Of a DNA stretch of 64,000 nucleotides, positions 30,500 through 31,444 are shown one piece after another. Source of the DNA: Sphingobacteriales bacterium JAD_PAG50586_3. GTDB lineage: Bacteria > Bacteroidota > Bacteroidia > CAMBQF01. Under the pieces are notes generated by a model, which saw nothing but the letters and a program-made list of their open reading frames with translations, searched no databases and was not told where the DNA came from. The stretch lies in assembly GCA_023213195.1 (NCBI GenBank), contig CP096135.1:1134616-1198615 (forward strand), written 5' to 3'. Each line of letters starts with the position of its first letter. Position 1 is the stretch's first letter. A program made the position numbers and the translations under genes.

Positions 30500-30504
30500 T
30501 AAAG

Positions 30505-30670
30505 GGCCAGAGACCCGAATGTCAATAGAAATAAGTTTTGACAGACTATTATATGGCAAGCGTAACTTGGTCCGGAGGACCGAAATGTCAATAGAAATAT
30601 GTTTTGACAGAACATGATATGGCAAGTATAATTAGGTCCAGAGGACCGATATGTCAATAGATAAATTAGG
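30505..30670. repeat. Upstream REP array of 66-bp period
   Basis: The tail ATGTCAATAG occurs at 30519, 30585 and 30651, exactly 66 bases apart. Each is preceded by an inverted-repeat core such as GGTCCGGAGGACC, and units are joined by GTTTTGACAG...ATGGCAAG direct repeats. This is the REP field serving the adjacent Y1 transposase. Confidence 0.85.
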
Positions 30671-30712
30671 ATAACAAAGTTAAGCCCCATAGGGGCGATA
30701 CCATAATAGACC

Positions 30713-31168
30713 ATGCCCAATACCTATACCCTATTGTACGTTCATTATGTCTTTGCTGTGCAGTCCAGAGAAAATGTAATCTCTACTAATTGGGAAGAAG
30801 CGCTTTATAAATACGTAACAGGCATTGTAACTAATAAAGGACAAAAATTAATGACAATAAATGGTATGCCAAACCATGTCCATATTTTAATTAGCATGTC
30901 CGCATCTATTACTGTTGCTGATTTGGCTAGAGATATAAAGTCAAATTCGGCAAAGTATGTAAATGAAAACAATATGTTTTTGGGCAGGTTTAGCTGGCAG
31001 GAGGGGTACGGTGCATTTTCAGTTTCGCCTTCACAAGTAAGCAAAGTGGCAACATATATTGAGAATCAAAAAGAGCATCATAAAGCGATGACATTTAAGG
31101 ACGAGTATTTAGAGTTATTAAAACGTTCTGAGGTTGATTACAAGGAAGAATATTTATTTGAGTTTTAG
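30713..31168 (+). CDS. IS200-like / REP-associated tyrosine transposase (RAYT)
   Basis: A 151-aa single-domain Y1 HUH nuclease. Motifs: HYVFAVQSREN beta strand, HUH pair in PNHVHILI (about residues 61-68), ADLARDIKSNSAKYVNE, GRFSWQEGYGAFSVSPSQV and the catalytic Tyr in YIENQKEHH. Length and sequence match IS200/IS605-type transposases, but no tnpB is present and the gene lies inside REP palindromes on both sides, which fits RAYTs that mobilise or maintain REP sequences rather than a whole insertion sequence. Acts on single-stranded hairpin DNA. Confidence 0.9.
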   Translation: MPNTYTLLYVHYVFAVQSRENVISTNWEEALYKYVTGIVTNKGQKLMTINGMPNHVHILISMSASITVADLARDIKSNSAKYVNENNMFLGRFSWQEGYGAFSVSPSQVSKVATYIENQKEHHKAMTFKDEYLELLKRSEVDYKEEYLFEF

Positions 31169-31169
31169 T

Positions 31170-31444
31170 AATGTGCCACCCCTCCGGGGCTGTTGATTTT
31201 TGGAATGCTGTTTGCTATTGACATACCGCCCCTCCGGGGCTATCTTTACCGGCGTTATCGCTGGAATTTTTTAACAGCTAGTAGGCCGGCATGTCAATAG
31301 GAACAGAAGATAATATGCTAATTCCTATACCACCCCTATGGGGATTGTGTATGGGTATTATGGGTGTGTTTTTAAGGCCCGGAGGGCCGATATGTCAATA
31401 GAAAATAAATAGAAATAAATTAAACCCCGTAGGGGTGACACAAA
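31170..31444. repeat. Downstream REP field, mixed orientations
   Basis: Contains CCCCTCCGGGG palindromes near 31180 and 31232 and the tail ATGTCAATAG inverted at 31215-31224 and direct at 31291-31300 and 31392-31401, with ACCCCTATGGGG and CCCCGTAGGGG variants. Inverted and direct copies together make REPIN-like pairs. Confidence 0.82.

Follow-up and report, generated by a model that had tools for sequence, protein, structure and literature searches.

A probable REPtron-like system of a TnpAY1 subclass 1.2 transposase and its own palindromic repeats

Does a lone Y1 transposase gene that sits among small palindromes own them, and, if so, what kind of system do the two make up? The question arose from a 64,000-nt stretch of the genome of Sphingobacteriales bacterium JAD_PAG50586_3 (contig CP096135.1, positions 1,134,616 to 1,198,615; hereafter the window). 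The original prediction was a REP-associated tyrosine transposase (RAYT) amid its own repeats. As argued below, the locus is probably a REPtron-like system, in which a low-copy, diverging TnpAY1 of subclass 1.2 goes with its own small palindromic repeat family.

The gene and the repeats around it

All six copies of the 10-mer ATGTCAATAG that had been predicted around the gene are present, at 30519, 30585, 30651, 31215 (inverted), 31291 and 31392, and the three upstream copies are exactly 66 bp apart, as claimed. The window holds seven copies in all, with a shuffle expectation of 0.11 per window; none of 100 shuffles reached seven. The seventh, at 1850-1859, has no palindrome and fits chance. 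The further claim of a palindrome beside each flanking copy held for four of the six (30585, 30651, 31215 and 31392, each adjoined by an intact 5-bp palindrome), but not for 30519, where the stem is shifted and degenerate, nor for 31291, which is without an intact stem.

The 66-bp array, on the plus strand, begins with the degenerate copy at 30504..30528 (stem GGGCCAGAGACCC, then GA and ATGTCAATAG; 28.3 bits). It continues with a GGTCC-GGA-GGACC hairpin at 30569..30594, which carries the tail GAAATGTCAATAG with RTAG 14 nt past the loop (49.6 bits), and with a GGTCC-AGA-GGACC hairpin at 30635..30660, tail GATATGTCAATAG (51.8 bits). An extra partner hairpin on the same strand, GCCCC-ATA-GGGGC at 30684..30709, lies 49 nt past copy 3, loop to loop; its variant tail, GATACCATAATAG, has ATAG at the 14-nt offset and ends 3 nt before the start codon of the transposase gene, tnpA (30713..31168, plus strand).

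Downstream of tnpA comes an inverted unit on the minus strand, made up of a partner hairpin (H2) at 31178..31190 and, 50 nt away, the hairpin at 31228, which belongs to an inverted repeat at 31215..31240 (GCCCC-GGA-GGGGC, minus-strand tail GGTATGTCAATAG; 53.2 bits). A degenerate plus-strand repeat follows at 31270..31306, with its ATGTCAATAG tail at 31291-31300 and no intact palindrome (18.3 bits), and then a minus-strand hairpin of partner type with the arm pair CACCCCTATGGGG at 31331..31343. The last repeat, GGCCC-GGA-GGGCC at 31376..31401 on the plus strand, again has the tail GATATGTCAATAG (53.3 bits), and 48 nt past its loop stands the plus-strand H2 partner ACCCC-GTA-GGGGT (31424..31436), 8 nt 5' of the ATG of the next gene. 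Three of the partner hairpins (31178, about 31331, 31424) are, like the one before the start codon, additional to the six 10-mers.

The whole REP-tnpA-REP block (30500..31444) is missing at the orthologous junction of the congener G002. There only 14 nt separate the two flanking genes, which are direct neighbours with neither transposase nor repeats, as against 945 nt in the window. The difference looks like a single discrete event, either insertion or deletion, which these genomes do not polarise.

The 151-residue product of tnpA matches PF01797 (1e-26) and contains the motifs NHVH, WQ and YIENQKEHH; the pattern Y---Q--HH recurs in 71 of 73 relatives, and so does WQ. Its AF2 model (pLDDT 94.6) found the TnpA proteins of ISDra2 and IS608 as best Foldseek matches, with the TnpAREP structure 4er8 at rank 30, and a profile search of solved structures matched IS200/IS605-type transposases only. 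TnpAY1 proteins have been split into 12 subclasses, of which subclass 1.2, mostly confined to Cyanobacteria and Bacteroidetes, is characterized by Y---Q--HH, a median length of 148 residues and low copy number (Quentin et al. 2018, PMC6006769). The focal protein fits this subclass: it has Y---Q--HH, a short core with WQ, a low copy number and divergent paralogues, and it comes from a Bacteroidota genome, while in sequence and fold it is nearest to IS200/IS605 TnpA, not TnpAREP. Its HuH motif is NHVH, as opposed to the DH[IV]H of the subclass (PMC6006769).

The only other Y1 protein of the focal genome is 36% identical to the focal one, and paralogues within one genome differ at 38-48% of sites. 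This second gene (506,454-506,816 of the genome; L032, L337) has an apparently disrupted N-terminal frame and is flanked by tandem CCCCGCACTTTAGTGTGGGG...GGGCTTTAGCCC hairpins, inverted again downstream; L034, L036 and L037 are alike. We do not count it or its related clades within the focal repeat family, their loops being TTTA, TTTC or TGAA.

Anatomy and dispersal of the repeats

A genome-wide count of the palindromes had been proposed as a check, their absence elsewhere being the outcome that would speak against the original prediction. Copies are present elsewhere: the 4.16-Mb focal genome has 35 exact ATGTCAATAG copies versus three for a reversed-pattern control, the rate in the window predicting about seven by chance. 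The palindrome is at the expected place in at least 21 of the 30 copies fetched, and the hairpins, where present, share one fixed register. A covariance model trained on 21 copies detects about 40 repeats, spread over roughly 25 places. Among 30 examined, 28 lie outside long ORFs and 14 between convergent genes, so the prediction that the Y1 transposase lies amid palindromes of its own stands, with related hairpins dispersed and mostly extragenic. About ten pairs are inverted doublets, with the hairpins inside and the tails outside. At 947 kb, a complete doublet with outer partner hairpins separates two convergent genes; a comparison with relatives for an empty site there found the neighbours not syntenic. 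Separately, a 209-bp tandem duplication at 2,509,724 and 2,509,933 (L024/L025) contains a single repeat in each of its copies, with CCCCTCCTTTTTAAGGAGGGG after it.

We then have the anatomy of 156 loci in two sets, one of 80 fetched regions plus the window and the other of 75 independent named loci from Flavobacterium, Hymenobacter, Pedobacter, Chryseobacterium, Ignavibacteria, Desulfonema and Verrucomicrobia. In set 1, the density of GC-rich hairpins was 5.35/kb up to 400 bp from the gene and 0.42/kb beyond 1.5 kb, and set 2 replicated this contrast (5.34 near versus 0.43/kb far). When every offset was scanned in set 1, [AG]TAG stood 14 nt past the loop in 99 hairpin sides, with a count of 9 at the next best offset; in set 2 the same offset had RTAG in 116 sides and any other at most 6. 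By strict criteria, this ruler repeat is found at 101 of the 156 loci, the remainder having degenerate or different hairpins.

The typical repeat has a 5-bp GC stem, usually a GNA-type triloop, and, on the 3' side, an AT-rich tail that ends in TAG. The stem varies from 5 to 10 bp while the loop-to-RTAG offset stays constant, so that the loop, rather than the stem foot, appears to set the ruler. A logo of RTAG-selected repeats is without a conserved tetranucleotide 5' of the stem, where no position exceeds 0.33 bits; RTAG is invariant in this logo by construction, and the offset counts are the unselected evidence for it. Stem covariation in alignment A4 was dropped as evidence, the rows having been selected for perfect pairing.

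Which strand might be recognised? Weighted by locus (n = 92), the loops comprised 54.6 GNA and 73.6 (G/A)NA, and 2.6 of the T-N-Y pattern of the other strand. C(GNA)G triloops in DNA are unusually stable. With standard energy parameters, hairpin stability was nearly equal on the two strands, so folding energy does not decide the matter. Conservation of loop and tail favours the strand with the tail 3' over the complementary reading, a 5' CTA[TC] followed by the hairpin.

In 156 of 165 cases a second hairpin of the same orientation, usually lacking RTAG, lies 47-55 nt on, as measured between the loops. Desulfonema magnum, with 132 model matches in its genome, has tandem arrays that repeat every 50-52 bp, including one of more than 20 units. 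Given these distances, a period of 66 bp, as in the window, is atypical for the family: the regular upstream array of the original prediction is real, but it is a local detail where the general period is about 50 bp. The Desulfonema magnum array of more than 20 hairpin-tail units (L268, chromosome 3,025,489-3,026,622) is CRISPR-like in its regularity and has a 52-bp period, with the transposase gene about 50 kb away. On contig 43 of G101 (L095 / L251), two subclass 1.2 genes about 2.7 kb apart are both surrounded by the same type of tailed hairpin.

Repeats and transposase across genomes

Co-occurrence in related genomes, also proposed as a check, was assessed in 395 genomes of the class, the family and order levels having given only three. 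A homologue (E<=1e-20) was found in 179. With a generic model, 97 of these 179 were repeat-positive versus 15 of the 216 others (odds ratio 15.9, p 2e-26, host phylogeny uncorrected); when all genomes used for fetched regions were left out, the figures were 41/109 versus 15/216 (odds ratio 8.1, p 3e-11, likewise uncorrected for host phylogeny). The generic model, for which only 16 candidates were scored per genome, had no match in 82 of the 179 gene-bearing genomes. Among the 15 repeat-positive genomes outside the gene-bearing set, seven have weaker or partial homologues and eight no detectable gene.

Four comparisons tie the kind of repeat to the kind of protein. At other-clade Y1 loci of the same genomes, used as a control, the ruler repeat was found once in 40; these loci are flanked by hairpins with TTTA, TTTC or TGAA loops, and CGTAGCG stems occur near some class 2 genes. 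Mapped on a 194-protein tree, the repeat trait changes 40 times, where shuffling gives 64.7 changes on average and never fewer than 54. Distances between proteins correlate with those between tails (Mantel r 0.45, 0/5000 permutations as high, host phylogeny uncorrected). Finally, in nine of 10 paralogue loci from five genomes, the tail is closer to that of the nearest homologue in another genome than to that of the paralogue in the same genome. Repeat type therefore follows the transposase, not the host.

Several of the class 2 (Y---NP) genes of these Bacteroidota genomes (the L311, L324-L335 set) have CGTAGCG-TCCC-GCTACG-like hairpins nearby. Other clades of subclass 1.2 from the same genomes (L301-L340) each have hairpin types of their own, namely CCACGACCTTTAGGTCGTGG, GCCCTTTCAGGGC with CGTCGGGCTTCACCCGACG, and CAACCCTGAAAGGGTTG, which suggests that the whole subclass is repeat-associated.

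What kind of system

It is highly implausible that the hairpins are host elements, such as terminators or mRNA stabilisers, among which a transposase merely landed. The position of 14 of 30 repeats between convergent genes would suit such elements. However, the stem is not followed by a T-run, for which the terminator reading was rejected; from species to species the stems vary but the tail offset does not; the tails go with the transposase and not with the host; other-clade Y1 genes of the same genomes have different hairpins; and the repeats are associated with the gene across genomes.

The RAYT first proposed, read as an ordinary class 2 system (TnpAREP) with canonical 5'-GTAG REPs, has points in its favour. 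Like the REP/RAYT systems with their REPtrons and REPINs, the locus has a low-copy Y1 gene flanked by its own extragenic palindromes dispersed in the same genome, with arrays, co-variation of repeats with protein, and inverted doublets, whose arrangement is like that of a REPIN, two inverted REPs acting as a mobile unit. That much of the predicted role, a REPtron-like way of working, survives; both defining features do not. The protein is of class 1, with Y---Q--HH instead of the Y---NP of class 2, its structural matches lie with IS200/IS605, and canonical REPs have GT[AG]G 5' at the stem foot, whereas here the 5' flank has no conserved tetranucleotide and [A/G]TAG stands 3', 14 nt from the loop. 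We consider this reading very unlikely.

Also unlikely is a degenerate IS200/IS605-type element, with the hairpins as its left and right ends and the dispersed copies as MITE-like ends. The class 1 protein, with the fold and HUH/Y---Q motif of the IS608 and ISDra2 TnpA, agrees with it, as does the absence of the whole block from G002; a hairpin with a 3' site resembles a right end, and a tagged first hairpin followed by an untagged second one resembles a right end-left end junction. On the other hand, multiple near-identical gene-bearing copies are found neither in the focal genome nor among same-genome paralogues, given the divergence noted above. The dispersed copies are hairpin units, arrayed without the gene, not gene-bearing ends. 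No guide tetranucleotide is conserved 5' of the hairpin across loci, although a lineage-specific guide is possible. Inspection of the ORFs at 28-34 kb of the window found no tnpB-like frame, in agreement with the original prediction; we found no IS copies either, and no IS200-type element, whose excision junctions it had named as a sign against a RAYT.

Inverted, palindrome-bearing flanks around a Y1 gene are likewise known from TIRYTs (TIRtrons) and the GTAG/CGTC repeats, and some H2 arms here (GGGGTGAC) fit their GGGGWSAS motif (Di Nocera et al. 2013, PMC3733652). The TIRYTs fell chiefly in subclass 2.1 and had HTH tails, and no 3' RTAG ruler was described for them (PMC3733652). Subclass 1.2 itself is listed as "REP: no" and as generally without IS200-type terminal structures (PMC6006769), unlike what we see, as most loci are embedded in hairpin repeats that are enriched 12-13x at the gene and dispersed genome-wide; the "no REP" entry records an absence in published work and does not define the subclass structurally. 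The most fitting description of the locus is a new REP variant of TnpAY1 subclass 1.2, in conflict with that entry. Among open-access papers, the literature covered by our search, we found no description of hairpin repeats paired with this transposase; RepRanger (PMC12306157) gives generic palindrome counts only, including Flavobacterium ginsenosidimutans.

For the REPtron-like reading, the sequence evidence covers the anatomy, the ruler, the genome-wide copies, association and co-variation, and an intact catalytic motif and fold; from there we infer strand, binding, cleavage position and mobilisation. When replication or transcription makes the locus single-stranded, TnpA would bind the hairpin via loop and stem, measure a fixed distance into the 3' tail, and nick at or next to RTAG through Tyr115. 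Cleavage and rejoining between repeats could then yield arrays, inverted doublets and dispersed copies. Mobility of the repeats would be in keeping with their dispersal, the arrays and the one empty site.

The units could arise from IS200-type ends, because a right end-left end junction has the same order of hairpin, site, spacer and hairpin. Tentatively, then, subclass 1.2 might bridge IS200/IS605 and REP systems, the unit being a fossil or active junction of this type that the transposase now propagates, instead of itself, in the form of arrays and inverted doublets. It would do so independently of class 2 RAYTs, choosing its site 3' rather than 5'.

With REPs reported absent from subclass 1.2, its assignment there makes the locus more interesting than the original prediction supposed. 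Irrespective of how the units arose, the repeats offer a candidate cognate DNA substrate, with exact geometry, for a large uncharacterised transposase subclass, whose homologues occur in 179 of the 395 sampled genomes of the class, with relatives in Ignavibacteria, Verrucomicrobia and Desulfonema. They would account for a class of hairpin repeats that is common in Bacteroidota genomes but unannotated, and their natural co-variation with the protein provides data for decoding how hairpins are recognised. The system also points to more than one origin of REP-type systems from single-strand transposases, with site choice following a different rule.
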